Positions 30,516 through 42,927 of a DNA stretch of 64,000 bases are shown here, piece by piece (within the stretch, counting starts at the first letter, position 1; every line of letters begins with the position of its first letter). Both the position numbers and the translations under genes were made by a program. Source of the DNA: Halomonas sp. KAO (GTDB lineage Bacteria > Pseudomonadota > Gammaproteobacteria > Pseudomonadales > Halomonadaceae); assembly GCF_015595025.1 (NCBI RefSeq), contig NZ_JADNRL010000037.1, forward strand, positions 190,619 through 254,618, written 5' to 3'. Under the pieces are notes generated by a model. The model was not told the DNA's origin. It saw only the letters and a program-made list of their open reading frames with translations, and made no database searches.

Positions 30516-33500
30516 ATGGAACGGTTACCGGAAGGCCTCTATGAGCGGCTTCTCGATGAAGAGCTCAGGGAGCAGCTGGAGGCGCAGCCTGATCTCAAGC
30601 CAGTGTTACGTAAGCTCGATGATGAGACGGCTCCCCACGTCTACGCCCAGTTCCTCGGCCAGTTACTTCATCAAGCCTTGCGAATCGTCGATGGCGATCA
30701 TCGCCTTCCTCTTCTCAATCGCCTTATCGAGCTAATGTCGGCTACCGATGGCCTCGATTATCTGGCGCGAAAGAAACTGCTGGAGACGGATAAGCCGGTG
30801 CTTGGCGAGCTGGTGCAGGGTGCCCAGCGTCTGCCCCGACCGGCTACGCCACTGGCGACCAGTGCTCTGTTGACCGGGCTGGGGCATGACCCGCCCTTGG
30901 AGCACGAGCTTCGTGCCGAAATGGCTACGGCCGATAGCGTCGATATCCTGGTGTCATTTATCAAGTGGTCGGGGCTAAGGCTGTTGATGCCCGCCTTCGA
31001 GCACTTGGCCGACCGTAATATACCGGTTCGCTTGATCTCCACCAGCTATATGGGGGCCAGTGACCCGACGGCGCTGGAGTGGCTGACCCAACAGTCCAAT
31101 GTCACCGTGCGAGTCTCCTACGATACCGGTGGCACGCGACTGCACGCCAAGGCCTATCACTTTCGACGTGCAAGTGGGTATTCAACCGCCTATATCGGCT
31201 CCGCGAATATGTCTCACTCGGCGATGACCCAGGGGCTTGAGTGGACCGTCAAGGTTACCGCCCAGGACATGCCGCATATTCTTGAGCGCTTCGAGGCGGA
31301 GTTTGCCGCCTACTGGGAGAGCGACGAGTTTGAGCCCTACACGGAGTCTGATTTCACGCGATTTCGGCGTGCGATCGCGGCCCATAAAGAGCGCGCGCAG
31401 AGAGGGGCAACGTTCTTTGCCGAAATCACACCACGGCCTTTTCAGCTCAGAATTCTTGAGGCGATCGATGCAGCACGCCAGCGCGGCTCGTATCGTAATC
31501 TGGTGGTCGCGGCCACCGGTACCGGCAAGACGGTGATATCGGCGCTGGATTATCGGCGGATCTGCGAGCGGGAGGGGCGTCAGGTGCCTTTGCTATTTGT
31601 TGCCCATCGCAAGGAGGTCCTGGAGCAGGCTCAGTCCTGTTACCGCACCGTGCTTCGCGACCAGAACTTCGGTGAGCTCTGGGTCGGTGGGTACGTGCCG
31701 ACGGAACATCGTCATTTATTTGCCTCGGTTCAAATGCTGAACAGACAGCGGCCATGGGCATCATTGGGAGCCGACCACTTCCACTATGTGGTGATCGACG
31801 AGGCCCATCATGAGACCGCCAGCAGCTATCGGGCACTCCTCGAGGAGCTTGAGCCGGCCGTGCTGCTTGGGTTGACGGCCACGCCCGAGCGAATGGATGG
31901 AAGCAGCATCCTGCCGGACTTCGATGGCGACTTTGCTGCGGAGATTCGACTCCCCGAGGCCCTCGAAGAGAAGCTGCTGTGTCCCTTTCACTACTTCGGG
32001 GTCAGCGATAGCGTCGATCTCAGCGATGACAGCCTGTGGCGTAACGGCCGATATGATGCTCGTCAGCTGGAGCATCTGCTGACCGGAGACGACTTCCGTG
32101 CCAAGCAGCGGGTGGATACCGTTGTGCAGGCTTTGGAGCGTTATCAGCCCGACCTGCACGGTGTGCGCGCCGTAGGATTCTGTGCCGGGGTACGCCACGC
32201 CGAGTATATGGCGGAGTGCTTCAACCGGCTGGGCGAAGCGTACCGGGCCGCCGTGATTGTTGGTGACACGCCGACCGAGCTGCGTGCCGAGCGACTGCGC
32301 GAGTTCCGCGAAGGAAGACTCCCCTTTCTCTTCACCGTCGATGTACTGAGTGAAGGGGTCGATGTTCCCGATATCAACCTAGTGATGTTCCTGCGCCCTA
32401 CCGAGAGTCTGACGGTGTTTCTGCAGCAGCTGGGTCGTGGTCTTCGTCATGCGCCAGGGAAGGAGTGCCTCACCGTTCTGGACTTCGTTGGACAACCCCA
32501 TCGTCGCTACCGACTGGATACCCGGTTTACGGCCTTGCTAACCGGGCGGCGCCAACGCCTGGATCGAGAGGTGGAAGCCGACTTTCCCAGCCTACCGCCC
32601 GGCTGCAGCATCCAACTCGAGCGGGTGGCGCGAGAGCGAGTGCTTGGCAAAATCCGCTCGGTACTGGCCGACCTTAACCACTTTATTCCCGAGACGCTGC
32701 GCACCTGGTCGGAAGAGGTGGGGCAGCCGCTCACCTTCGGACGCTTCCTGGAGGCGACCGGGCTGACGCCTGTCCAGGTGCTGTCACGCCGTAGCTGGAC
32801 CGAGTGGAAGGCGTTGGCGGAGCGGCGAGCGATGCCCGAGGACCCCGATCTCGATCAGGCGCGCAAGGCGTTGCCGCGTATCGCACTGCGTAGCGACCCC
32901 GAACTGCTCACGGCCATCGAAACCCTGGGACAACCCGAGGGCGTCGAGGAAGCGCTGGGGCGCTACGACACCGCGCAACAGACGGCGTTGCACTATCTGC
33001 TGTGGGGAAGGAAGGGCGGTCTGGTAGGTATCGACACTCTCGAGCAGTCGCTGCACAAGTGGCGAGATAACCCCAATGTGGCGGCAGATGCCGCAGAAGT
33101 GGCTGCATGGCGACGCGGCCACCAGCAGGTACCGCTGCGTCCCCTTAACGATCTTCCATTCGACTGTGGGCTGCTATTGCATGGCGCCTATGGGATGGCA
33201 GAAATCAAGGCAGCACTTGGGCTAGCAAGCTTGGAGAAGCCGGGCTCGACCGGCGTGGGGGTGATCCATGCTAAGGAGATTCGCGCCTATATCCACCTGG
33301 TGACCTTCCAGAAAGATGACAGCGATTTTTCCCCCACGACGCGTTATCGCGACTACCCCATCAGCCGTACGCTACTTCACTGGGAGAGTCAGTCGAACAC
33401 CACGCAGCTTAGCTCTACGGGGCAGAACTACATCCACTTTCAGGAACGCGGTTATACCATTCTCTTCTTCGCACGCTTGACCAAGCGAATCGAGGGCGAA

Positions 33501-33632
33501 ACGGCACCCTTTATCTTCCTGGGGCCCGCGAAGGCATTGACGAGCCTTCAGGGGGACCGGCCCATCGCCATGACCTGGGAGTTGGCCCACCCCATGCCGG
33601 CCGGGATGTTCGAGGAGGCGAGGCCGGCATAG
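30516..33632 (+). CDS. PLD-domain / SF2 helicase / DUF3427 protein (1038 aa)
   Basis: A three-part nucleic-acid enzyme. Residues about 130-245 form a phospholipase-D-like nuclease domain (LHAKAYHF and IGSANMSHSAM, a single HxK-type site). Residues about 325-700 are an SF2 helicase: Walker A ATGTGKTV near 334, DEAHH near 428, LTATPERMDG, and QQLGRGLRHAPGK near 638. The C-terminal 150 residues match the DUF3427 pattern (GVIHAKEIRAYIHLVTFQK...DYPISRTLLHWESQS). This layout resembles restriction-like or phage-defence helicase-nucleases. It stands alone, and its base composition looks less GC-biased than its neighbours, which fits acquisition by transfer. Function is not established. Confidence 0.85.
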   Translation: MERLPEGLYERLLDEELREQLEAQPDLKPVLRKLDDETAPHVYAQFLGQLLHQALRIVDGDHRLPLLNRLIELMSATDGLDYLARKKLLETDKPVLGELVQGAQRLPRPATPLATSALLTGLGHDPPLEHELRAEMATADSVDILVSFIKWSGLRLLMPAFEHLADRNIPVRLISTSYMGASDPTALEWLTQQSNVTVRVSYDTGGTRLHAKAYHFRRASGYSTAYIGSANMSHSAMTQGLEWTVKVTAQDMPHILERFEAEFAAYWESDEFEPYTESDFTRFRRAIAAHKERAQRGATFFAEITPRPFQLRILEAIDAARQRGSYRNLVVAATGTGKTVISALDYRRICEREGRQVPLLFVAHRKEVLEQAQSCYRTVLRDQNFGELWVGGYVPTEHRHLFASVQMLNRQRPWASLGADHFHYVVIDEAHHETASSYRALLEELEPAVLLGLTATPERMDGSSILPDFDGDFAAEIRLPEALEEKLLCPFHYFGVSDSVDLSDDSLWRNGRYDARQLEHLLTGDDFRAKQRVDTVVQALERYQPDLHGVRAVGFCAGVRHAEYMAECFNRLGEAYRAAVIVGDTPTELRAERLREFREGRLPFLFTVDVLSEGVDVPDINLVMFLRPTESLTVFLQQLGRGLRHAPGKECLTVLDFVGQPHRRYRLDTRFTALLTGRRQRLDREVEADFPSLPPGCSIQLERVARERVLGKIRSVLADLNHFIPETLRTWSEEVGQPLTFGRFLEATGLTPVQVLSRRSWTEWKALAERRAMPEDPDLDQARKALPRIALRSDPELLTAIETLGQPEGVEEALGRYDTAQQTALHYLLWGRKGGLVGIDTLEQSLHKWRDNPNVAADAAEVAAWRRGHQQVPLRPLNDLPFDCGLLLHGAYGMAEIKAALGLASLEKPGSTGVGVIHAKEIRAYIHLVTFQKDDSDFSPTTRYRDYPISRTLLHWESQSNTTQLSSTGQNYIHFQERGYTILFFARLTKRIEGETAPFIFLGPAKALTSLQGDRPIAMTWELAHPMPAGMFEEARPA

Positions 33633-33734: not shown

Positions 33735-34322
33735 ATGACCAGTTCAATCAGCCGTTTTCCCGTACCGGAGTCGATCCACGACCTGCCCGACGATATCCGC
33801 GACGCCATCCTGGCGGTGCAGGAGAAGGCCGGCTTCGTGCCCAATGTCTTCCTGATGCTGGCGCATCGCCCGGCCGAGTTCCGCGCCTTCTTCGCCTACC
33901 ATGACGCCCTGATGGAGCGTGAGTCCGATACGCTGACCAAGGCGGAGAAGGAGATGATCGTGGTGGCCACCAGCGCCCGCAACCGGTGCCTCTACTGCGT
34001 GGTGGCCCACGGTGCCCTGGTGCGTATCTACAGCAAGGACCCGTTGCTGGCCGACCAGGTGGCGATCAACCATCGCACCGCGCCGATCAGCGAGCGGCAT
34101 CGCACCATGCTCGACTTCGCGATGTACTGCGCCCTGGAGGTGGGGGAGCTTACCGAGGAGTGGGAGACTCGCCTGGAGTCGGCCGGCTTCACTCGCGACG
34201 ATATTTGGGATATCGGCGCCGTCGCCGCCTTCTTCGGCCTCTCCAACCGCCTGGTCACCCTGACCGGCACGCCACCCAACGAGGAGTTCTACCTGATGGG
34301 GCGGGTACCGCGGGAGAAGTAG
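33735..34322 (+). CDS. Peroxidase-related protein, AhpD/CMD fold
   Basis: A 195-aa member of the uncharacterised peroxidase-related group of the carboxymuconolactone decarboxylase fold. The redox motif is RNRCLYCVVAHGALVR, with Cys-x-x-Cys and a following His, as in AhpD. Such proteins can reduce peroxides when recharged by a thiol partner. It has its own upstream region (103 bp). The next gene encodes a DsbA-fold protein, which suggests thiol-redox roles for both. Substrate unknown. Confidence 0.85.
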   Translation: MTSSISRFPVPESIHDLPDDIRDAILAVQEKAGFVPNVFLMLAHRPAEFRAFFAYHDALMERESDTLTKAEKEMIVVATSARNRCLYCVVAHGALVRIYSKDPLLADQVAINHRTAPISERHRTMLDFAMYCALEVGELTEEWETRLESAGFTRDDIWDIGAVAAFFGLSNRLVTLTGTPPNEEFYLMGRVPREK

Positions 34323-34428
34323 ACAGCGAGCTCCAATAATTGATTGGCGCGATGTATAGGCTGGTAGGCTAATCATCGAAAAGGGTCATATACCGGGCGA
34401 ACAACCAGTTATTGGAGGTGTGACCGTC

Positions 34429-35076
34429 ATGAAGAAGATCGATATAGATATTGTTTCGGATATTGCCTGCCCCTGGTGTGCCATCGGCTATGCTCGGCTG
34501 GAGCTGGCCATGCAGCGGCTGGCGTCAGAGTTCGCATTCACGATCCGCTGGCACGCCTTCGAGCTGAATCCTGAACAGAGCGGAGAGGGGGAGCCGATCC
34601 TGCCGGCGCTGGCGCGCAAGTATGGGCGCAGCGAGGAGGAGATGAGCGCGTCTCAGGGTCAGATGATGACCATCGCGGAGGAGCTCGGCATCAACTTCGC
34701 GAAGATCCAGGAGCGACGCACCTGCAATACCTTCGATGCCCATCGGCTGGTCAAGTGGGCCGGTGAGAAGGGCGAGGCCACCGCCGTGAAGCAGGCGCTG
34801 TTCGAGGCCTATTTCGGCAGGGCGGAAGATGTCTCGGACCCCGATGTGCTTGTCCGCTGCGTTGAGGCCGCGGGGTTGTCCCCGGAAGGCGCCGGGGAAG
34901 TGCTTGAGTCGGCGCAGTATGCCGATGCCGTGCGCGAGGATGAGGCCCGCTATCAGCATGCCGGTGTCTCGTCCGTTCCGGCCTTCATTATCAACGACAA
35001 GTACCTGATTGCCGGGGCGCAGGAGCCTGACACCCTGGTGGGCGCACTGCAGGAGATCGCCGCGGAGTCGCCATAG
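34429..35076 (+). CDS. DsbA family oxidoreductase, FrnE-like
   Basis: A 215-aa cytosolic thioredoxin-fold protein (no signal peptide). The active site is DIACPWCAIGYARLE (CPWC), and the cis-Pro loop is VSSVPAFIINDKYLIAGAQ. FrnE-type proteins act as disulfide isomerases or glutathione-linked isomerases and are tied to oxidative stress in some bacteria. ATG 34429 was chosen because GGAGG lies 10 nt upstream; the GTG at 34420 overlaps that site. An 8-bp inverted pair, tccaataa and ttattgga, brackets the promoter region upstream. Confidence 0.88.
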   Translation: MKKIDIDIVSDIACPWCAIGYARLELAMQRLASEFAFTIRWHAFELNPEQSGEGEPILPALARKYGRSEEEMSASQGQMMTIAEELGINFAKIQERRTCNTFDAHRLVKWAGEKGEATAVKQALFEAYFGRAEDVSDPDVLVRCVEAAGLSPEGAGEVLESAQYADAVREDEARYQHAGVSSVPAFIINDKYLIAGAQEPDTLVGALQEIAAESP

Positions 35077-35170
35077 CCGGCAGCGTGGGTTTATTGTACC
35101 GACGCGGCCCGGGGGATGGCCCTTGGCGTTATCCGGTCGGCACCGATAACCGGCCTGGATCTGTAGCCCC

Positions 35171-35224
35171 CTGACACCAACGACGCCCTGCCGGGGGTGA
35201 CCGGCAGGGCGTCGCTGGTGTCAG
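35171..35224. terminator. Bidirectional terminator, 24-bp stem
   Basis: ctgacaccaacgacgccctg at 35171-35190, plus four more bases, pairs with 35201-35224 with one mismatch. The loop is six bases. It lies between the convergent FrnE-like gene and the TRAP operon and probably ends both transcripts. Confidence 0.8.
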
Positions 35225-35243
35225 GGGTGCCGTAGGACGGGGA

Positions 35244-36542
35244 TCAGCGACCGCCGAACGCCTCGGGCATGATCGTCTGGGGCAGGAATAGGAACAGGTC
35301 CGGGATCAGGATGCCGGCCATAATGATCAGCATCACCAGGCCGATCAGCGGCAGGATGGCGACGAAGGCCCGGGGGGTGGAGACCGCGCCGATCTGGCTG
35401 GCGATCAGCAGACAGATGCCGTAGGGCGGCGTCACCAGGCCCAGGGTCAGCGACAGGATCACGATCAGCGCCATATGGATCTGGTTGATGTCGGCGGCCA
35501 CGCAGATGCTCTGGATGATCGGCAGGAAGATGATCACCGCGGTGACCGGGCTGAGCACGGTACCGATGATCAGCATGAAGGCCATGACCATCAGCATGAT
35601 GCCGATGCGTGTCTGGGTGACCGAGAGGATGAAGCGGGCCACCTCGTCGGCAATGCCGAGATAGGAGATCAGCCAGCCCATGATGCCGGCGGCAGCCACG
35701 GCGAACATCGGCAGCGAGTAGGCGATCACCGACTCGGCGAGGATGCCGGGGAGGGCGCGCAGACGGATGGCGCGATAGAACACCACCGCCAGCAACAGGC
35801 CCACCAGCACCGCTACCGAGGCCGCCTCGGTGGCGGTGAACACCCCGGCGGTGATGCCGCCCAGCACCACGATGGGCAGGATCATCGGCGGGGCGGCGAC
35901 CAGGCCGGTGCGAGCGACCTGGCGCAGCGAGAACTCGCTCTCCGCCTGCAGGTTGTGGCGTCGGGCCACGCTGTAGGCGTAGCCCATCTGGGCCAGGCCG
36001 ATCAGCAGCCCCGGTACCACGCCGCCCAGGAACAGTGCGCCTACCGAGACGTTGCCGAAGGCACCGTAGATCACCATCAGGATCGACGGCGGGATGATGC
36101 CGCCCAGCACCGAGGAGGCGGCGGTCAGTGCCACCGCGAAGGGCGAGGGGTAGCCGGCCTTCTTCATGGCCGGGATCAGCACCGCGCCGACGCTGGCCGT
36201 GTCGGCGGCAGCCGAGCCGGAGAGGCTGGCGAACATCATCGACACCATGACGTTGATATGGCCCAGGCCACCGCGAATATGGCCCACGGTGCTGTCGGCG
36301 AAGCGCAGCAGGCGGTCGGTGATGCCGCCATCGTTCATCAGCCGTCCCAGCAGTAGGAAGAACGGTACCGCGAGCAGCGGGAAGGAGTTGATGCTGGCGA
36401 ACATCTGGTTGACCACCGAGGTCAGCGGAATATCGAGCTGCCAGATGGTGATGATGGAGGCCAGGCCGATGGCGAAGGCGATGGGGACGCTCAGCGCGAT
36501 CAGCAGCAGGAAGCTGGCGATAAGCGTAACGATGGGACTCAT
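35244..36542 (-). CDS. TRAP transporter large permease (DctM type), second system
   Basis: A 432-aa permease with about 12 helices. DctM marks are FPLLAVPFFLLLGRLMNDGG, SGSAAADTASVGAVLIPAMKKAGY and GGIIPPSILMVIYGAFG. Start ATG 36542 overlaps the DctQ stop (ATGA); a longer in-frame reading to 37091 would overlap dctQ in another frame and is rejected. It is the last gene of the eight-gene operon and is followed by a strong terminator. Substrate unknown. Confidence 0.92.
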   Translation of the reverse strand: MSPIVTLIASFLLLIALSVPIAFAIGLASIITIWQLDIPLTSVVNQMFASINSFPLLAVPFFLLLGRLMNDGGITDRLLRFADSTVGHIRGGLGHINVMVSMMFASLSGSAAADTASVGAVLIPAMKKAGYPSPFAVALTAASSVLGGIIPPSILMVIYGAFGNVSVGALFLGGVVPGLLIGLAQMGYAYSVARRHNLQAESEFSLRQVARTGLVAAPPMILPIVVLGGITAGVFTATEAASVAVLVGLLLAVVFYRAIRLRALPGILAESVIAYSLPMFAVAAAGIMGWLISYLGIADEVARFILSVTQTRIGIMLMVMAFMLIIGTVLSPVTAVIIFLPIIQSICVAADINQIHMALIVILSLTLGLVTPPYGICLLIASQIGAVSTPRAFVAILPLIGLVMLIIMAGILIPDLFLFLPQTIMPEAFGGR

Positions 36543-37051
36543 GAGCAGGTGCTCTCCTCGGCTGCGGTGGACGTCGAGGCGGGTCGACCGATCAGGGCGC
36601 GAATATCCTCGTGGAGCACCTCGAGGGAGAACAGCGCCATGGCCACGCCGGCGATCGGCATCGCCATGAAGACGTAGGCCATGGGGGTGCCCAGCGATAC
36701 CGAGCGGCGCCCCCAGCCCATGTCGGTGAGGATCTGGCCGTGGACCACCAGTACATAGATCAAGGGCAGGCAGGCCAGGCCGCCGAACAGGCGCAGGGCC
36801 CGGTTGGTGATCGCGAAGCGAGGGGGCAGCATCTCGATCACATAGTGGCTGCGCCGGCGTAGTGCCACCGCGGCGCCCAGGAAGACCGACCAGATGAAGC
36901 AGGCCATGGCCACTTCGTCGGACCAGGCCACCGAGATCTTCAGATAGTTGCGTGCCAGTACCTGATACAGAATGGTGGTGATGAAGACCGCGAACAGGGT
37001 CCCGCTCACCAGCAGGAACAGGGTTTCGATAAGATCGTTGAGTCGCCGCAT
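36539..37051 (-). CDS. TRAP transporter small permease (DctQ type), second system
   Basis: A 170-aa four-helix membrane protein. It begins MRRLNDLIETLFLLVSGTLFAVF and has the DctQ core VAWSDEVAMACFIWSVFLGAAVALRRRSHYVIEML. It overlaps dctM by 4 bp and is separated from the binding-protein gene by 61 bp that hold a perfect 14-bp hairpin. Confidence 0.9.
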   Translation of the reverse strand: MRRLNDLIETLFLLVSGTLFAVFITTILYQVLARNYLKISVAWSDEVAMACFIWSVFLGAAVALRRRSHYVIEMLPPRFAITNRALRLFGGLACLPLIYVLVVHGQILTDMGWGRRSVSLGTPMAYVFMAMPIAGVAMALFSLEVLHEDIRALIGRPASTSTAAEESTCS

Positions 37052-37071
37052 ATCGTGTTGCTCTCCCGAAA

Positions 37072-37106
37072 CGACACGGCCGCGGGGGCATGCCGCGGCC
37101 GTGTCG
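37072..37106 (-). promoter_or_regulatory. Intra-operon hairpin after dctP of the second TRAP system
   Basis: cgacacggccgcgg (37072-37085) pairs perfectly with ccgcggccgtgtcg (37093-37106) around a 7-nt loop. It lies 6 bp after the dctP stop, the same location as the hairpin in matPQMAB. No U-tract follows, so a role as mRNA 3'-end stabiliser or partial terminator is likely. Confidence 0.7.
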
Positions 37107-37112
37107 GCACTG

Positions 37113-38102
37113 TTACAGCTCGCGGATCAGTGTCAGCAGGTCATCCACACCGCGCTCGGCGGCATACTCGTCATGAAGGGGCACGCTGGCATCGATGAAG
37201 GCCTGCTTGTCCACCTCGGTGACTGTCACGTCCTGCTCCTTCAGGGTGTCGATCAGGGCGGCGTCGTACTCCACCCCCTTTTCGGTACCCAGCTCGCCGG
37301 CCCGCTGGGCGGCGGCCAGCACGATGGCCTGATCCTCCTCGGAGAGGCGCGAGAAGCTACGCTCGCCGATGGAGAAGTGACTCATCATCACCTGGTGTTC
37401 GGTCTTGGCGTGGTAGGGCGCCACTTCATAGAGACGGCTGGAGTAGAAGCCGCTGATGGTGCTCTCGAAAGCGCCGATGACCCCGGTCTGCATGCCGGTG
37501 TAGATCTCGGTCCAGGGCAGCGAGGTGGTCAGCGCGCCTACCGCCTGCCACATCTTGGCGTCCAGCTGCGAGCCGGTGATGCGCATCTTGACGTCGTCCA
37601 GATCGGCAGGCTCGGTGACCGGTCCGGTGTTGGTGCTCAGGTTGCGGGTGCCGCCGCCGGTCAGTGCCAGCAGCTTGAGGCCGGTGCCGGCGCTCTCCAT
37701 CTCCTCGGCGAAGTGGGCGAACACCGCTGAGTCGGGGTCGGTGGCCGCACGGAAGGCGTCCATGTCGTCGAACAGGTAGTTGAGACTGAAGATCTCGAAG
37801 TCCTGCACGTAGGGGGCGATGTTCTGGACCCCGCCGATGATCATGTCGGTGGTGCCGATGCGGATCTCGTCGACCACGGTCTGGTCATTGCCCAGCTGGC
37901 CGCCGGGGAACAGCTCCACGGTGATCCGCTGGTCGGTCGCCTCCTCGACCTCGGTCTTGAAGGCCTCGGCGGCATCGACCCAGGGGTGGGGCGCACTGAC
38001 CACGGTGGCCAGGCGCAGCTTCTGGGCCAGGGCGGGGGAGGCGGCCAGCAGGGTGGCGGCGGAGAGCAGAGTGAACTGGGTAAGACGTGTTGTTATGGCC
38101 AT
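37113..38102 (-). CDS. TRAP transporter substrate-binding protein (DctP type), second system
   Basis: A 329-aa periplasmic binding protein with a signal peptide ending ASPALAQ (residue 27). DctP features: VELFPGGQLGNDQTVVDEIRIGTTDMIIGG and PWTEIYTGMQTGVIGAFESTISGFYSSRLYEVAPY; the Arg in VKMRITGS is the usual carboxylate-binding residue. This suggests an organic acid or other anionic ligand. A small hairpin (38134-38151) lies upstream, between it and the CMD gene. Confidence 0.92.
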   Translation of the reverse strand: MAITTRLTQFTLLSAATLLAASPALAQKLRLATVVSAPHPWVDAAEAFKTEVEEATDQRITVELFPGGQLGNDQTVVDEIRIGTTDMIIGGVQNIAPYVQDFEIFSLNYLFDDMDAFRAATDPDSAVFAHFAEEMESAGTGLKLLALTGGGTRNLSTNTGPVTEPADLDDVKMRITGSQLDAKMWQAVGALTTSLPWTEIYTGMQTGVIGAFESTISGFYSSRLYEVAPYHAKTEHQVMMSHFSIGERSFSRLSEEDQAIVLAAAQRAGELGTEKGVEYDAALIDTLKEQDVTVTEVDKQAFIDASVPLHDEYAAERGVDDLLTLIREL

Positions 38103-38166
38103 GACAGGCGCTCCATTGGTCGTCAGAGGGGGTGCGCCGGCAGGCCGGCGCGGGTTTCGTTGTCGT

Positions 38167-38745
38167 TCAGGAGGCGGCCACCGGCTCGCCCAGGGTGTGC
38201 ATCAGGCGGTTGGCCCAGCCGAACAGGGTGGTCGCCAGGGTCAGGTCGAGGATCTCCAGCTCGTCGAGGCCGGCCTCGCGCAGGCTGGCGATGTCATCGG
38301 CGCCGACCTTCGGCGGGCATTCGGACAGGCCCACCGCAAAGCGCAGGATGGCCTGCTGGCGGGGGTCGAGCCGGGCCTTCTCGCCGTGGAAGAAGATCTC
38401 CTGCATCACGGCGTCCTCGCCGGTCAGCTGGTTGTAGCGCTGGGCATGCACGGCGGCGCAGTAGATGCAGCGGTTCACGAACGAGGCGGCCACGGCGCCC
38501 AGCTCGCGCTCGGCACGAGACAGGCCGTCGGGGTCATACATGATGCCGTTGAACAGCGCCGTGCGAATGCGCAGCGACTCGGGATCATGAGCCAGCACCA
38601 GTACATAGTCGGAGACCTTGGTGTTCGACGGGGTCTCCTTGAGGGCCTCACGCTGGGCCGGGGTCGCGTTGTCGAGATCCACCGGGGTCAGGTGCGGACG
38701 CCACTGGGGCACACGGGTAGTGAACTTGCGGATCACACGGCTCAT
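38167..38745 (-). CDS. Alkylhydroperoxidase-domain protein (Avi_7169-like)
   Basis: A 192-aa CMD-fold protein with the redox pair in NRCIYCAAVHAQRYN (Cys-x-x-Cys and His). The sequence fits the alkylhydroperoxidase-domain group named after Avi_7169, which regularly occurs beside an Avi_7170-type partner, as here. Its start overlaps the partner's stop by 4 bp (38742-38745). Group members usually sit with peptide-type ABC transporters and flavin monooxygenases; the TRAP transporter here is a different partner. The biochemical reaction is unknown. Confidence 0.82.
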   Translation of the reverse strand: MSRVIRKFTTRVPQWRPHLTPVDLDNATPAQREALKETPSNTKVSDYVLVLAHDPESLRIRTALFNGIMYDPDGLSRAERELGAVAASFVNRCIYCAAVHAQRYNQLTGEDAVMQEIFFHGEKARLDPRQQAILRFAVGLSECPPKVGADDIASLREAGLDELEILDLTLATTLFGWANRLMHTLGEPVAAS

Positions 38746-39272
38746 GTCGGCTCTCCCATCACGGCCAGCACCGCGGCCACGCGCAGCTGGTAGTTGACGA
38801 AGGCGACCAGACCCGCCAGGCGCACGATATCGCTCTCGGCGATGCCGGCCTGCTGCAGGCGCTGGATATCCTCGGGGCTGGCGTCGCGAGGGGACTCGGT
38901 GACGAGGTCCACATAGGCGACGATGGCCATGAGCCGGGCGTCCTCCGCCGGGGGCTGGGCGCCGGGCGTGGCCAGTACGGCCAGTTCGGCGCTGCTGCCT
39001 TTTTCGTCGAGCAGGGCGGCGTAGTGCTCGGTCAGTCCGGACTGCTGACAGATCCGCGCCATGCGGCAGGCGAGCACGGCACGCTCGGCATGGGAGAGCC
39101 CGCCCGGATCCTCGGGCAGCAGGGCCGCTTCGTAGGAGGCCTGGGTGCGGCTCATCAGCGCCTGGCGCCGTGCCAGGGCGTCACCCAGCGGCCTCTGGGC
39201 CGCCGCCACGCCGGCGGCCTGCTCGAGTACGTGCTGCGGAGTCGAGTCCGCGGATGAAGAGGGGGAGGTCAT
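38742..39272 (-). CDS. CMD-domain protein (Avi_7170-like), no CxxC pair
   Basis: A 176-aa CMD-fold protein. The core AERAVLACRMARICQQSGLTEHYAALLDEKG sits where AhpD has its active site but lacks Cys-x-x-Cys; the two cysteines are separated by five residues. It is probably the non-catalytic or differently catalytic half of a hetero-oligomer with the adjacent CMD protein. It lies 45 bp after the flavoprotein gene in the same operon. Confidence 0.78.
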   Translation of the reverse strand: MTSPSSSADSTPQHVLEQAAGVAAAQRPLGDALARRQALMSRTQASYEAALLPEDPGGLSHAERAVLACRMARICQQSGLTEHYAALLDEKGSSAELAVLATPGAQPPAEDARLMAIVAYVDLVTESPRDASPEDIQRLQQAGIAESDIVRLAGLVAFVNYQLRVAAVLAVMGEPT

Positions 39273-39317
39273 GACGACTCCTTGTCGATAACGGGGCGAT
39301 GGTTCACGGGCGCGAGA

Positions 39318-40772
39318 TCAGGGCAGCGGTTCGGGCTGCCACTCGTCGCCGAGCAGCTCGGGGGTGTCGTAGGCCTGCAGGGTCTGCCAGTGGGTCTCGA
39401 TATCCTCCCGGTAGAGCTGGGCGGCGATGGCGCTGGCCAGCCAGCTGGCGCCCTCGCTGATGCCGGGGATATCACCGCTCACCTTGCCCATGCTCAGCGA
39501 GGCGCCGTAGTTGAAGCAGTGAATGTTGCCAAGCCAGGGAGCAGTGCCGGGCTGGCGCTCCTGGAAGGCGAAGTCGCTCCCCACATAGGGGAAGTTGCCC
39601 AGCTCGGCGTGCTCGAGTTCCGCAGGCGGGCTGTAGCGATCCTTCCACAGCAGGATCCGATCGGCATAGCCGGCCAGCTCGGTGCGTGCCATGGGGTCGA
39701 TCTGAAAGCCGGTACCCAGGATCAGGTAGTCGCAACGCAGCTCCTTGCCCCGGGAGGTCTCGATGACGATCTCGTCGCCCTCCATGCGCGTGGCGGTGAC
39801 GCCGGCATTGAAGTGGAAGTGGGCATTGGGGTGGCGGCTGACGCGCAGGGTCGAGCCGCGGGGCGGCGGCGTCTGGGTGACGAAGGAGTAGTGCATGAAG
39901 CGCCAGCGCCACTCGTCGGGCAGCCCGGCGTAGCCATGGGTGAAACCGAACGAGCCGATGCCCATCATTTTGTTGATGGTGGGCATCGCCGGGCGGCGAA
40001 TCAGGTGGCGGACTTCCCGGGCGCCATGCTCGAGCGCCTCGGCGGCGTTGTCCACCGCCGAGGCACCGACGCCGACCACCACCACTCGCTTGTCGGCCAG
40101 GCTGGCGAAGTCGATCTCGTCGGAGGAGTGGGCCCAGACGTGGCGCGGCAGCGGGTCGACGAAGGCCGGAATCTTGGGACCGCCGGTGCCTTCACGGCCG
40201 GTCGCCATGATCAGCTTGCGGGTGAACAGGGGCTCATCGGGGGCGTTGCGGCCTGAGAGCTCCAGCTGCAGCAGGTCGCCTTCGGGGCGCACATGCTCCA
40301 CCTTCACCTCGTTGTCGACGGGCAGCTCGAGCACCCGGCGATACCAGCGCAGGTAGTCCATCCACATCGGGCGCGGGATCTTGTCCAGGGCCTCCCAGGC
40401 CTCATTGCCGAACTGGGCCTCGTACCAGGCGCGAAACGTCAGCGAGCCCATGCCGTAGCTGGGGCCGGGTAGTGTCTTGGGAGAGCGCAGCGTCTCCATG
40501 CGCGCGTAGTCCAGCCAGGGTCCCTCATGGCCCTCGGGGCTGCGGTCGAGGATGCGGATGTTGCGGATACCGCCGGAGAGCAGGGCAAAGGCGGCCACCA
40601 TGCCGCACTGGCCACCACCGATGATCACGACGTCGTGGACATGCCTGCCAGTGGCCGTGTGCCGGGAGGGCACCCAGTTGGCGGCGGGCAGATTGAGACA
40701 CGCCAGGTCGTGGCGCACCCGGGCGTTGAGCTGGTCGAGGCCGGCGGTGGCGAAGGATGGCGTCTGGGTCAT
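39318..40772 (-). CDS. FAD/NAD(P)-binding monooxygenase-like oxidoreductase
   Basis: A 484-aa two-dinucleotide-fold flavoprotein. The FAD site is VVIIGGGQCGMVAAFALL near residue 50 and the NAD(P)H site VVVVGVGASAVDNAAEAL near residue 225, the layout of class B flavin monooxygenases and N-hydroxylases. LILGTGFQID near residue 360 is the conserved ATG-like motif of this superfamily. ATG 40772 overlaps the aminotransferase stop; a longer in-frame start would extend into that gene. It probably oxygenates a heteroatom (N or S) or carbonyl of the imported substrate (inference). Confidence 0.85.
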   Translation of the reverse strand: MTQTPSFATAGLDQLNARVRHDLACLNLPAANWVPSRHTATGRHVHDVVIIGGGQCGMVAAFALLSGGIRNIRILDRSPEGHEGPWLDYARMETLRSPKTLPGPSYGMGSLTFRAWYEAQFGNEAWEALDKIPRPMWMDYLRWYRRVLELPVDNEVKVEHVRPEGDLLQLELSGRNAPDEPLFTRKLIMATGREGTGGPKIPAFVDPLPRHVWAHSSDEIDFASLADKRVVVVGVGASAVDNAAEALEHGAREVRHLIRRPAMPTINKMMGIGSFGFTHGYAGLPDEWRWRFMHYSFVTQTPPPRGSTLRVSRHPNAHFHFNAGVTATRMEGDEIVIETSRGKELRCDYLILGTGFQIDPMARTELAGYADRILLWKDRYSPPAELEHAELGNFPYVGSDFAFQERQPGTAPWLGNIHCFNYGASLSMGKVSGDIPGISEGASWLASAIAAQLYREDIETHWQTLQAYDTPELLGDEWQPEPLP

Positions 40773-42490
40773 GGAGTCATCTTCTCGTCTTGGGCGGAGG
40801 CGGCCTCGCCGGATTCGTGTGGCCACCAGAACCAGCGCAGCGCCTCTTCGTCTTTACAGCTGCTCGGGGGCGGCTCGATGACAGACGTGCGCGCGCTATC
40901 GACCAGCGCCTGAGCCTGGGCGAAGCACTGCTCGAAGTCTGGCGGAGTCGGTTCGGGGTGGGGTGCGTCGGGGCTCAGCAGAGCGCTCAGCGAGGGCGTT
41001 TCGCAGGGCGCCTGAGCCTGGCGAGCACGCCAGGTACCACTCTGCACATCGACACGATAGAGCCGCATCAGCACGGCGGCATGACGGGCGATAAATTCGA
41101 CGGCATCGATAATATAGCAAGCCGTCTCACTGTTAAAGAAGTAATTAAAACCGAGTCTTACCCAGCCTGGGCGGAATAAGCTTTTTCCCTTATGGACTAG
41201 TTCGGCATGTTGTCGGGCCTGGGTCTCACTGATGTCCAGCAGGGAGTGAGCATAGGGACCGGCGCAGGAGCAGCCGCCCCGGGCCTGGATACCGAACAGG
41301 TCATTGAGCAGTGCCACCACCAGGTTATGGTGCAGCAGGCGCGACCCGGCGGAGATATTGAACGAAACGATGCCCAGGCGCGGGGTGTGCCGCGGCCCCA
41401 GGATGTGTAGGTTGTCGAGTCGCGACCAGCGCTCCATGGCTCGTTGGGTCAATGCCGTCTCGAGTTCGGCAATGTGCGCAGCCCCCACCTGCTGCTTGAG
41501 GGTGAAGACCAGCCCGGTGCGAATGTTCTCGACGATGCCGGGGGTGCCACCCTCCTCGCGCCGTTCGGGGTCGGTGACGTAGTGGTGTTCGCCGTCGGTC
41601 ACATAGGAGACGGTGCCGCCACCGGCCACACCGGGCACGGCGTTGCGGCACAGGGCGCGGTCGATGACCAGGACGCCGGAGGTGCCGGGCCCGCCGATGA
41701 ACTTGTGCGGCGACAGGAAGATGGCGTCGATATGATCGTTGGCGCCGGGGGCGCTTTCCGCCATGTCGATCGGCACATAGGGGCCGGCGGCGGCATAGTC
41801 ACAGGCCAGGATGCCGCCGTGGCGGTGGACCAGCGCGGCCAGCTGGCGCACGTCGGTCAGCACGCCGGTAACGTTGGAGGCCGCGGAGAAGGCCGCCACC
41901 TTCAGGGGCCGCTCGGCATGGGCCTGGAGCGCGCGCTCCAGCTCGACCAGGTCGGGCAGGCCGTCGGCGTCAAGCGGGATGCGTACCAGGTCGGCATCGG
42001 CCTCGCGCCAGGCCAGGTCGTTGGAGTGGTGTTCGAAGGGGCCGATGAAGATCACCGGGCGTGCCGCTTCGGCCGGCCGGTGCAGGCCGGGCAGGTCGAG
42101 AATGCGCGAGAAGCGGTCGATGGCCGCGGTGGCGCCGCTCCCGGCGAAGATCACCGCGTGTTCGGGGCCGGCCCCCACTCCCTCGCGCACGGCCTGACGG
42201 GCCGCCTCGCGCAGCCGGGTGGTGCGCATCCCGGTGTAGGAGGTCTCGGTATGGGTGTTGCCGTAGTTGGGCAGCACCTCCTCCTGGATGACCCGCTCGA
42301 TCATGTGCAGGGCACGGCCCGAGGCAGTGTAGTCGGTGTAGACCTGGGGGCGCGGTCCGAAGGGGCCGGGAATGGCTCGGCCTTCGCCGATGATGTCGTG
42401 ACGGATGCGCGCGACCCACTCATTGGCCCGTGGAGAGGGGGAGGGCGTGGGTGCGCTTGACGTGCTCCATGGAGAAACAGGATGTGACAT
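40769..42490 (-). CDS. Class-V aminotransferase / cysteine-desulfurase-like PLP enzyme
   Basis: A 573-aa PLP enzyme, longer than the usual 400 aa because of a C-terminal extension (from about residue 480) with repeated Pro and Cys. The PLP lysine is in IFLSPHKFIGGPGTSGVLV, and the cofactor loop is AGSGATAAIDRF. RGGCSCAGPYAHSLL aligns with the catalytic-cysteine loop of SufS-type desulfurases. It could be a C-S or C-N lyase or transaminase. No in-frame start lies closer, so its first 71 bp overlap the lrp-like gene; it overlaps the flavoprotein gene by 4 bp. Confidence 0.82.
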   Translation of the reverse strand: MSHPVSPWSTSSAPTPSPSPRANEWVARIRHDIIGEGRAIPGPFGPRPQVYTDYTASGRALHMIERVIQEEVLPNYGNTHTETSYTGMRTTRLREAARQAVREGVGAGPEHAVIFAGSGATAAIDRFSRILDLPGLHRPAEAARPVIFIGPFEHHSNDLAWREADADLVRIPLDADGLPDLVELERALQAHAERPLKVAAFSAASNVTGVLTDVRQLAALVHRHGGILACDYAAAGPYVPIDMAESAPGANDHIDAIFLSPHKFIGGPGTSGVLVIDRALCRNAVPGVAGGGTVSYVTDGEHHYVTDPERREEGGTPGIVENIRTGLVFTLKQQVGAAHIAELETALTQRAMERWSRLDNLHILGPRHTPRLGIVSFNISAGSRLLHHNLVVALLNDLFGIQARGGCSCAGPYAHSLLDISETQARQHAELVHKGKSLFRPGWVRLGFNYFFNSETACYIIDAVEFIARHAAVLMRLYRVDVQSGTWRARQAQAPCETPSLSALLSPDAPHPEPTPPDFEQCFAQAQALVDSARTSVIEPPPSSCKDEEALRWFWWPHESGEAASAQDEKMTP

Positions 42491-42887
42491 TGCTCAGCTC
42501 GATTCTGGAAATGAGTCGCTTGTAGAAGGCGTCGAAGGACTGGTTGTCACGGGTGATCACCTTGAGCAGATAGTCGTACTCGCCGGCCAGGCGATTGACC
42601 TCGATGATCTCATCGAGCGCCTGGGTGACCGCCTGAAAGCGGTCCAGCCAGGCCTGGTTGTGCTTGTCGGTCTTGATCATCACGAACACGGTCAACCCCA
42701 GGCCCAGCTTCACGGGGTTGAGCACCGCGACACGCCGTTCGATGAAGCCTTCCTTCTCTAGGCGCTGAATTCGCCGCCAGCAGGGGGTCGGCGACAGGCC
42801 GACGCGGTCAGCGATCTTTGCAATGGATAAGCTAGCATCGCGCTGAAGTTGATCAAGGATTTTGGAGTCAAAGCTGTCGATTGGCAT
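42420..42887 (-). CDS. Lrp/AsnC family regulator
   Basis: A 155-aa regulator: the HTH lies in DASLSIAKIADRVGLSPTPCWRRIQRLEKEGFIERRVAVL, followed by a RAM/AsnC ligand-binding domain (VNRLAGEYDYLLKVITRDNQSFDAFYKRLI). Such proteins often sense amino acids and regulate the adjacent operon. Its 3' end overlaps the PLP enzyme gene by 71 bp, so the two are expressed together. It is divergent from ilvD; the region between has an AT-rich dyad. Confidence 0.92.
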   Translation of the reverse strand: MPIDSFDSKILDQLQRDASLSIAKIADRVGLSPTPCWRRIQRLEKEGFIERRVAVLNPVKLGLGLTVFVMIKTDKHNQAWLDRFQAVTQALDEIIEVNRLAGEYDYLLKVITRDNQSFDAFYKRLISRIELSNVTSCFSMEHVKRTHALPLSTGQ

Positions 42888-42914
42888 GATATTTCCTGAT
42901 TTTCCCGTCTTTTA

Positions 42915-42927
42915 GAAATTTTATTTC
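42915..42927. promoter_or_regulatory. AT-rich dyad, candidate Lrp-type binding site
   Basis: gaaat-ttt-atttc is a perfect dyad in the AT-rich patch 28 bp upstream of the lrp-like start. It fits the kind of site Lrp/AsnC proteins bind, allowing self-regulation and possibly control of ilvD. Binding is inferred. Confidence 0.4.

Follow-up and report, generated by a model that had tools for sequence, protein, structure and literature searches.

The window analysed here is a 64,000-nt stretch of the Halomonas sp. KAO genome (contig NZ_JADNRL010000037.1, positions 190,619 to 254,618), which carries eight genes in the order lrp-PLP-FMO-CMD1-CMD2-dctP-dctQ-dctM, all on the minus strand and running from 42887 to 35244. 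An original prediction, made from the sequence alone, had described them as a single-strand operon encoding an Lrp-type regulator, a class-V pyridoxal phosphate (PLP) enzyme, an FMO-like flavoprotein, a CMD pair and a DctPQM transporter. Open reading frame (ORF) coordinates and Pfam and NCBIfam profile searches agree with this order and with these family names, and confirm that the operon is real. Its genes and two stem-loops are as follows:

42420..42887, minus strand: Lrp/AsnC-family regulator, 155 aa (PF01037 64.6 bits, PF13404 63.6 bits)
40769..42490, minus strand: class-V PLP enzyme with a predicted SufS-like cysteine desulfurase fold and a C-terminal extension, 573 aa (PF00266 165.1 bits)
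39318..40772, minus strand: FMO-type flavoprotein (FMO), 484 aa (PF13738 68.7 bits)
38742..39272, minus strand: CMD1, degenerate partner of CMD/AhpD fold, 176 aa (TIGR04029 97.8 bits, cut-off 100.75)
38167..38745, minus strand: CMD2, AhpD-like peroxidase-related protein, 192 aa (PF02627 48.4 bits; TIGR01926 205.1 bits, cut-off 81.8)
37113..38102, minus strand: DctP, substrate-binding protein of a tripartite ATP-independent periplasmic (TRAP) transporter (PF03480 226.8 bits)
37072..37106, minus strand: 14-bp GC hairpin in the dctP-dctQ gap (fold z -3.5; none of 200 shuffles equally stable)
36539..37051, minus strand: DctQ, TRAP small permease (PF04290 90.5 bits)
35244..36542, minus strand: DctM, TRAP large permease (PF06808 345.2 bits; TIGR00786 362.9 bits, cut-off 268.45)
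35168..35227, no strand assigned: 27-bp stem-loop with a 6-nt loop and no U-tract, between the convergent dctM and a DsbA/FrnE-like gene

ATGA overlaps of 4 bp, which had been claimed for most junctions, are found at only three of the seven (PLP/FMO, CMD1/CMD2 and DctQ/DctM), the others being a 71-bp overlap (lrp/PLP) or gaps of 45 bp (FMO-CMD1), 64 bp (CMD2-DctP) and 61 bp (DctP-DctQ). The PLP/FMO overlap involves the PLP stop and an ATG start of the FMO at 40772, and the FMO ORF also has a GTG start at 40826. The predicted 24-bp terminator stem is indeed a stable structure (-69.7 kcal/mol for positions 35155-35245, z -9.9, 0 of 200 shuffles equally stable), but folding makes it 27 bp long and, as the U-tract is missing, it is terminator-like rather than a canonical intrinsic terminator. 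Upstream of lrp, a simple scan found no sigma-70-type promoter, so that it is gene orientation which argues for the proposed divergent promoter region.

The relatives of highest identity belong to Halomonas and Vreelandella, the closest PLP protein being 95% identical. Conservation was followed in two sets of sequences, which overlap and whose counts are therefore kept separate. The full eight-gene order is present in 14 of the 17 Halomonas/Vreelandella loci that hold the PLP gene. Among 275 Halomonadaceae genomes, 26 carry an FMO homologue at E <=1e-100 (27 places) and 24, including that of the window, carry one at least 75% identical; all 24 (the window and 23 regions, L170-L192) hold the eight genes in order, although the Lrp-to-PLP spacing reaches ~1.7 kb in L182. 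As the arrangement is kept in every genome with a close FMO, it is no chance association, and the neighbours of the operon foreseen by the original prediction do stay together in related genomes. The three remaining Halomonadaceae FMO places (L193, L194 and L195; 47-59%) are paralogues in different contexts, L193 having a CMD2-type gene ~8.5 kb off with a peptide-type ATP-binding cassette (ABC) system in between.

The PLP enzyme scores under every NCBIfam cut-off (e.g. 141.1 bits with the SufS model TIGR01979, cut-off 475.1). From its AlphaFold2 model (pLDDT 87.8), it is predicted to have the fold of group-II (SufS-like) cysteine desulfurases: SufS 7e6d is ranked first by Foldseek, and the comparison with 4w91_G gives a VIA Z of 33.8 and a root-mean-square deviation of 2.3 over 398 aligned residues. 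Residues K263, H154, H155, D231, R404, C407 and C409 are invariant across 37 sequences, and C409 aligns with the catalytic SufS cysteine. The residues expected of a group-II desulfurase are present (PLP lysine, histidine, substrate arginine and catalytic cysteine), and the fold match and the invariant C407 and C409 bear out the expected SufS-like enzyme with a catalytic-cysteine loop. This enzyme differs from the housekeeping one, as the true SufS of the genome is encoded elsewhere (574.5 bits, over the cut-off).

The two CMD proteins share 27% identity over 125 columns. CMD2 residues E81, C93, C96 and H100 are invariant in 27 aligned rows; we take the AhpD-like motif to be CxxC-His plus a glutamate. 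CMD1 has no CxxC motif in any of its 23 aligned rows and misses the TIGR01926 cut-off (46.0 against 81.8 bits). As CMD2 keeps the glutamate, CxxC and histidine and CMD1 has no CxxC, CMD2 is probably the active subunit and CMD1 a degenerate partner. The pair resembles the Avi_7170/Avi_7169 type to which it had been assigned but is not a member of it, since CMD1 falls short of the cut-off of CMD_Avi_7170 (TIGR04029) and CMD2 of that of perox_Avi_7169 (TIGR04030; 159.1 against 233.15 bits).

In the FMO, a GxGxxG motif, a dinucleotide-binding G234/G236/S238 and T354-G355-F356 are invariant in 39 aligned rows, and the two dinucleotide-binding motifs together with the FMO-like sequence mark it, at the sequence level, as class-B FMO-like. 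The 39-row profile weakly matches PDB sequences of a thioredoxin-reductase-like protein (7a76, 48.2 bits) and of small FMO-type monooxygenases (4usr, 47.7 bits; 4c5o/4a9w, 44.2 bits), and a structure model built from 15 close sequences is poor (pLDDT 50.1). The regulator is Lrp-like and lies outside the PRK11169 Lrp model, as it reaches 106.6 bits with a cut-off of 233. The TRAP transporter is complete, with all three DctPQM subunits.

The FMO also occurs beside predicted cysteine-cleaving enzymes in distant genomes. We sampled 371 genomes of the order of genome G288 (family f73), which we read as Rhodobacterales from the Tdh-Kbl-XRE-Lrp-PLP layout that it has in common with named plasmids of that order. 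In this sample, 38 genomes have the FMO, with 40 places in all (E <=1e-120), and 141 have the class-V PLP gene (E <=1e-70), among them 33 of the 38 FMO genomes against 14.4 expected (Fisher p 7.8e-11, uncorrected for relatedness). The 34 FMO regions that were fetched (L219-L252) hold the class-V PLP gene in 26 cases, a homologue of Cds1, an L-cysteine desulfhydrase, in three (L245, L247 and L249, 76-77% identical to a Palleronia copy) and neither in five; CMD2 is present in 28 of them. Six further FMO places are either PLP-linked (L144, G1222 and G1333) or unlinked (L149, L158 and G1236), bringing the linked places to 32 of 40 (29 with PLP within ~10 kb and three with Cds1). The PLP-linked places were counted by eye, G1222, G1333 and G1236 being judged from coordinates, and a count by eye also gives 28 genomes from 17 genera with PLP linkage.

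Quick trees, in which long branches were flagged, place the FMO-linked PLP members in two deep subfamilies (support 100), a Halomonas clade that also includes FMO-free members and a G288-order/Rhizobium clade, so that the FMO-PLP link would have arisen at least twice, unless one PLP gene took the position of another. On the FMO tree, at least ten changes of partner state (PLP, Cds1 or none) are needed; the label 'noCMD' on this tree stands for none within 6 kb, and some 'TRAP' labels (L212 and L249) come from distant DctM hits. We read the pattern as repeated recruitment, in-place replacement of one PLP gene by another being the alternative. What is new here is that class-V PLP and Cds1, two kinds of cysteine-cleaving enzymes with unrelated folds, repeatedly appear linked to the FMO. 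Two other gene associations were noticed. In L246, L248 and L250, an FMO paralogue without a CMD pair adjoins the PLP gene and HyuA/HyuB (hydantoinase/oxoprolinase-like) genes, perhaps another cysteine feeder. Beside Lrp-PLP, L144, L229, L231, L233, L234 and L253 carry genes for threonine dehydrogenase and glycine C-acetyltransferase, in many cases together with an XRE regulator.

At a wider scale, FMO homologues are present in 25 of 385 genomes of the class of G288, read as Alphaproteobacteria (E <=1e-100); across the phylum, 23 of the 398 genomes sampled have one (E <=1e-30), and some of these lack a CMD pair. Judging from gene neighbourhoods, FMO-CMD1-CMD2 is a recurrent cassette with exchangeable transporters, often accompanied by a LysR regulator and sometimes by an XRE-type one. 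A polyamine-type ABC transporter and an opine-dehydrogenase-family gene lie beside it in Sinorhizobium meliloti pSymB, Agrobacterium, Ensifer, Aminobacter and Nitratireductor, a polar-amino-acid ABC transporter in Pantoea, Rhizobium and Thioclava, and a peptide-type transporter in Ketogulonicigenium and, with the binding protein only, in Pseudoroseomonas. A branched-chain-type ABC transporter (L151) and a TctC-type receptor gene (L154) are also found, and TRAP transporters accompany the cassette in Palleronia and in L219 and L220, the last two being the same as in Halomonas (DctP 64-69%, DctM 78-81%). The peptide-type group also includes Microvirga, where the CMD pair is present and the fetched stretch shows no FMO. 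These conclusions on neighbours come from tblastn, as scripted gene calls were rough and included some spurious antisense ORFs; several regions (above all L220 and L232) stop at contig ends, and absence there therefore tells little. In L152, the CMD pair is separated from a peptide-type ABC system by a gene resembling BAAT-type acyl-CoA thioesterases/acyltransferases, of which L193 has a homologue.

Three kinds of clusters illustrate these exchanges. S. meliloti pSymB genes SMb20278-SMb20285 encode a LysR regulator, a PotFHIG-like ABC transporter, the flavoprotein SMb20280, the hypothetical protein SMb20279 and the CMD protein SMb20278; they share the FMO-CMD1-CMD2 order with the Halomonas operon (61%, 46% and 58% identity, respectively), but have a polyamine-type ABC transporter instead of TRAP, LysR instead of Lrp, and no PLP gene in the fetched stretch. 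The Palleronia plasmid cluster (L212) shares with it a TRAP transporter, the FMO, the CMD pair and a PLP enzyme predicted to cleave cysteine, but the latter is a Cds1 homologue of fold II (568.9 bits, cut-off 600) adjoining a Rid gene, in place of the class-V enzyme, and the TRAP transporter is distantly related (DctP 26%, DctM 35%). Finally, clusters of the G288 order (e.g. L225 and L231), arranged as Lrp / PLP-MFS-FMO-CMD1-CMD2-opine dehydrogenase-Pot, have in common with the operon Lrp, a class-V PLP enzyme, the FMO and both CMD proteins, whereas their PLP enzyme belongs to the other deep subfamily, their transporter is of the ABC type, and major facilitator superfamily (MFS) and opine dehydrogenase genes are added.

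Each protein family of the operon is already known, and we file it as a variant of flavin-monooxygenase/CMD-pair clusters, in line with the distinct TRAP form announced by the original prediction. The clusters covered by TIGR04027-04030 combine the luciferase-like monooxygenase KPN_01858 with the Avi_7170/Avi_7169 CMD pair and a transporter; they resemble the operon in that a CMD pair adjoins a flavin monooxygenase and a transporter, but both CMD proteins of the operon are under the cut-offs and its monooxygenase is FMO-type. No KPN_01858 member (TIGR04027) exceeds the cut-off in the genome, the best score (50.6 against 412.9 bits) lying elsewhere on the contig. Limited literature searches, in which supplements were not covered, returned neither the eight-gene set, nor its TRAP form, nor the repeated tie to cysteine cleavage, and no assigned pathway for related gene sets with other importers.

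At other loci, most of the neighbours of the PLP gene are consistent with an enzyme that acts on a sulfur-containing amino acid. For example, in Rhizobium N6212, genes for Lrp, PLP, a Blh-type sulfur dioxygenase and a TauE-family exporter (162.4 bits) adjoin those for LysR, FMO and the CMD pair; the dioxygenase reaches 537.8 bits with a cut-off of 625, matches model positions 140-423 only, and has 9g8t and 4ysk as best solved relatives. Similarly, Aminobacter carries Lrp, PLP and a Blh-type dioxygenase (553.5 bits), with the FMO-CMD cluster elsewhere on the same plasmid. Sagittula and Pseudosulfitobacter plasmids hold an ABC transporter, PLP, an FAD oxidoreductase, a 2-amino-thiazoline-4-carboxylate (ATC) hydrolase and an M20 amidohydrolase, with Lrp a few genes off, and Pseudomonas converts DL-ATC to L-cysteine via N- or S-carbamoyl-cysteine intermediates (PMC10821248). 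With the general amidohydrolase model, the M20 protein of Sagittula exceeds the cut-off (358.9 against 153.75 bits). In Rhodococcus DK17, a metallo-beta-lactamase-rhodanese gene is one gene away from PLP, and L058 shows a weak match to the rhodanese part of this Rhodococcus protein. A Ruegeria cluster contains TRAP, OsmC, P450 and PLP. At PLP loci in distant phyla, no conserved neighbour was found, and among proteobacteria none beyond Lrp. The genome of Halomonas sp. KAO itself has, on contig C24, two adjacent genes (L264 and L265) with matches of 557.6 and 397 bits to the dioxygenase portion of Blh.

Because of the links between FMO, PLP and Cds1 and of these sulfur-related neighbours, we propose a scheme of import, oxygenation, thiol recovery and desulfuration. 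On balance, the evidence tips slightly towards an Lrp-controlled operon for an imported cysteine-type organosulfur compound whose sulfur is blocked. DctPQM would import a carboxylate-bearing compound containing a blocked (e.g. S-substituted) cysteine, which the NAD(P)H-dependent FMO would oxygenate, most likely at sulfur. C-S cleavage would then yield a sulfenic acid, to be reduced to the free thiol by CMD2 through its CxxC, with CMD1 as degenerate partner; we prefer this role of the CMD pair to that of peroxide remover. The SufS-like enzyme would desulfurate L-cysteine, or a close analogue, to alanine and a persulfide, which the Blh-type dioxygenases encoded elsewhere in the genome could oxidise to sulfite. 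The scheme builds on the operon and its conservation, the computed fold and catalytic residues of the PLP enzyme, the AhpD residues of CMD2 and the FMO linkage to two kinds of cysteine-cleaving enzymes; beyond these, the substrate, S-oxygenation, the CMD step, the direction of flux and induction through Lrp are inferences. The scheme retains the organosulfur part of the original interpretation, including C-S cleavage, since the FMO is repeatedly linked with class-V PLP or Cds1, and Blh, TauE or ATC hydrolase lies beside some PLP relatives. It leaves the amine part less supported, no specific support having been found for an amine source or C-N cleavage.

Partial precedents exist in Bacillus subtilis. 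In the CmoO/CmoJ route of S-alkylcysteine salvage, the sulfoxide formed first is followed by a sulfenic acid, which undergoes reduction (PMC10863075), as would be needed here. Both this route and that of YxeK, for S-(2-succino)cysteine (2SC) breakdown, rely on a flavin monooxygenase that frees cysteine from an S-substituted form (PMC10863075, PMC9706529). However, the enzymes belong to another flavoenzyme family and N-acetylation steps are involved; the parallel is an analogy only.

Several observations weigh against the organosulfur scheme. Three of the 17 Halomonas loci (L008, L009 and L022) consist of lrp and PLP without FMO, CMD pair and TRAP. Conversely, FMO and CMD genes are found with no cysteine-cleaving enzyme in the fetched stretch in S. 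meliloti, Nitratireductor, Ensifer, Aminobacter, Pantoea, Thioclava, Ketogulonicigenium, Agrobacterium and Pseudoroseomonas (in Aminobacter MSH1 and Ensifer canadensis, the PLP gene is elsewhere, on plasmids), and five of the 34 G288-order regions lack both PLP and Cds1 (L219, L220, L221, L236 and L251). L220 is a 6.6-kb contig and thus an unfair test of absence; L219 has the Halomonas-type TRAP and no PLP gene nearby or genome-wide at E 1e-70. The polyamine-type transporters, opine dehydrogenase, threonine dehydrogenase and glycine C-acetyltransferase of relatives are left unexplained. When Blh and TauE were searched in L006-L090, L144, L168, L169, L210 and L219-L252, only L169 and L210 matched, and such sulfur neighbours are therefore not general at PLP loci; in addition, the Sagittula M20 protein fails the carbamoylase model (38.3 against 204 bits). 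As for the proteins themselves, none of the many PDB relatives of DctP is close enough to name a ligand, and the nearest solved relatives of the FMO, being weak matches of its profile, fail to separate S- from N-oxygenases. The eight genes include no N-acetyltransferase/deacetylase pair like that of the B. subtilis cmo/yxe routes, which for their part are not known to include a CMD pair or a desulfurase.

Other explanations divide the same evidence differently. The PLP enzyme might act first, on imported cysteine or a cystine-like compound, with FMO and CMD acting later, on the sulfur that it releases (sulfide, persulfide or another form), as a substitute for a sulfide oxidase. The linkage data fit this catabolism and detoxification equally, the FMO falls in the pyridine-nucleotide-disulfide superfamily according to Pfam, which includes sulfide oxidases, and at those loci where a Blh-type dioxygenase adjoins PLP, the dioxygenase could do such a job. 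We nevertheless consider it unlikely, since FMO-CMD clusters that have their own regulators and transporters and no cysteine-cleaving enzyme nearby better fit an upstream, substrate-facing role, and since the genome already encodes two Blh-type dioxygenases. It is likewise improbable that the FMO N-oxygenates an amino or polyamine-like compound, while CMD clears the peroxide that escapes from the FMO and C-N cleavage falls to the PLP enzyme. This amine route would account for the polyamine-type ABC transporters and opine dehydrogenase genes of many relatives, and SMb20278-20285, a member of the GlnD-dependent nitrogen response of S. meliloti, is labelled putative polyamine uptake (PMC3596328). 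The Ruegeria TRAP-OsmC-P450-PLP cluster, which pairs another oxygenase with a possible thiol peroxidase (OsmC), also suits it. However, the S. meliloti label comes from transporter homology, the PLP enzyme retains the SufS cysteine, histidine, lysine and arginine, and the replacement by Cds1, as well as some sulfur-acting neighbours, points elsewhere.

The genes could also represent two independent modules, Lrp-PLP for cysteine homeostasis and FMO-CMD-TRAP for an unrelated catabolism, joined by chance in Halomonadaceae. Each does occur alone (the former in L008, L009 and L022, the latter in L219) and an intergenic gap precedes the TRAP genes, but conservation in 24 of 24 genomes, the 4-bp PLP/FMO overlap and the links of FMO relatives with another PLP subfamily and with Cds1 make this quite doubtful. 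Finally, a role of the PLP enzyme as selenocysteine lyase or as desulfurase for Fe-S assembly is very improbable: the fold is the same, and its solved E. coli members include entries under the title selenocysteine lyase besides SufS, but the eight genes include no Fe-S or selenium gene, the enzyme is below all NCBIfam cut-offs, and the true SufS lies elsewhere in the genome, on which ground a selenium or Fe-S role of the operon was rejected.

If the preferred organosulfur scheme is extended beyond Halomonas, FMO and the CMD pair may be an exchangeable oxidative 'unmasking' cassette, which would free cysteine from S-blocked organosulfur compounds across Pseudomonadota with interchangeable importers and class-V PLP or Cds1 enzymes, the CMD pair being the sulfenic-acid reductase. 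We advance this generalisation tentatively and would sooner expect it to fail than to hold. It would make S. meliloti SMb20278-20285 an organosulfur rather than a polyamine system, thus questioning the polyamine label in a model symbiont, and would supply a cassette, the FMO of which occurs in 23 of the 398 sampled phylum genomes, with a function open to testing. Bacteria of saline, marine and plant-associated habitats would gain an additional organosulfur route and, for an AhpD-type pair, a definite chemical task is put forward in place of the bare label 'peroxidase-related'.

Convergent to the operon, positions 33735-35076 of the plus strand hold a third CMD/peroxidase-related gene (CMD3, 33735-34322; TIGR01926 187.8 bits, cut-off 81.8) followed by the DsbA/FrnE-like gene (34420-35076). 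Both were considered as operon members and rejected, as they are on the opposite strand and are nearby in some Halomonas loci only: both adjoin the operon in L007, and L006 and L008 retain the CMD3 gene within a few kb. A DsbA relative resembling 2-hydroxychromene-2-carboxylate isomerase adjoins FMO genes in L215, L158 and L194. Further along the plus strand, at 30516-33632, a 1038-aa protein matches the PADLOC model of a type IV methyl-directed restriction enzyme (PDLC03659, 688 bits) and is likely encoded by a defence gene.

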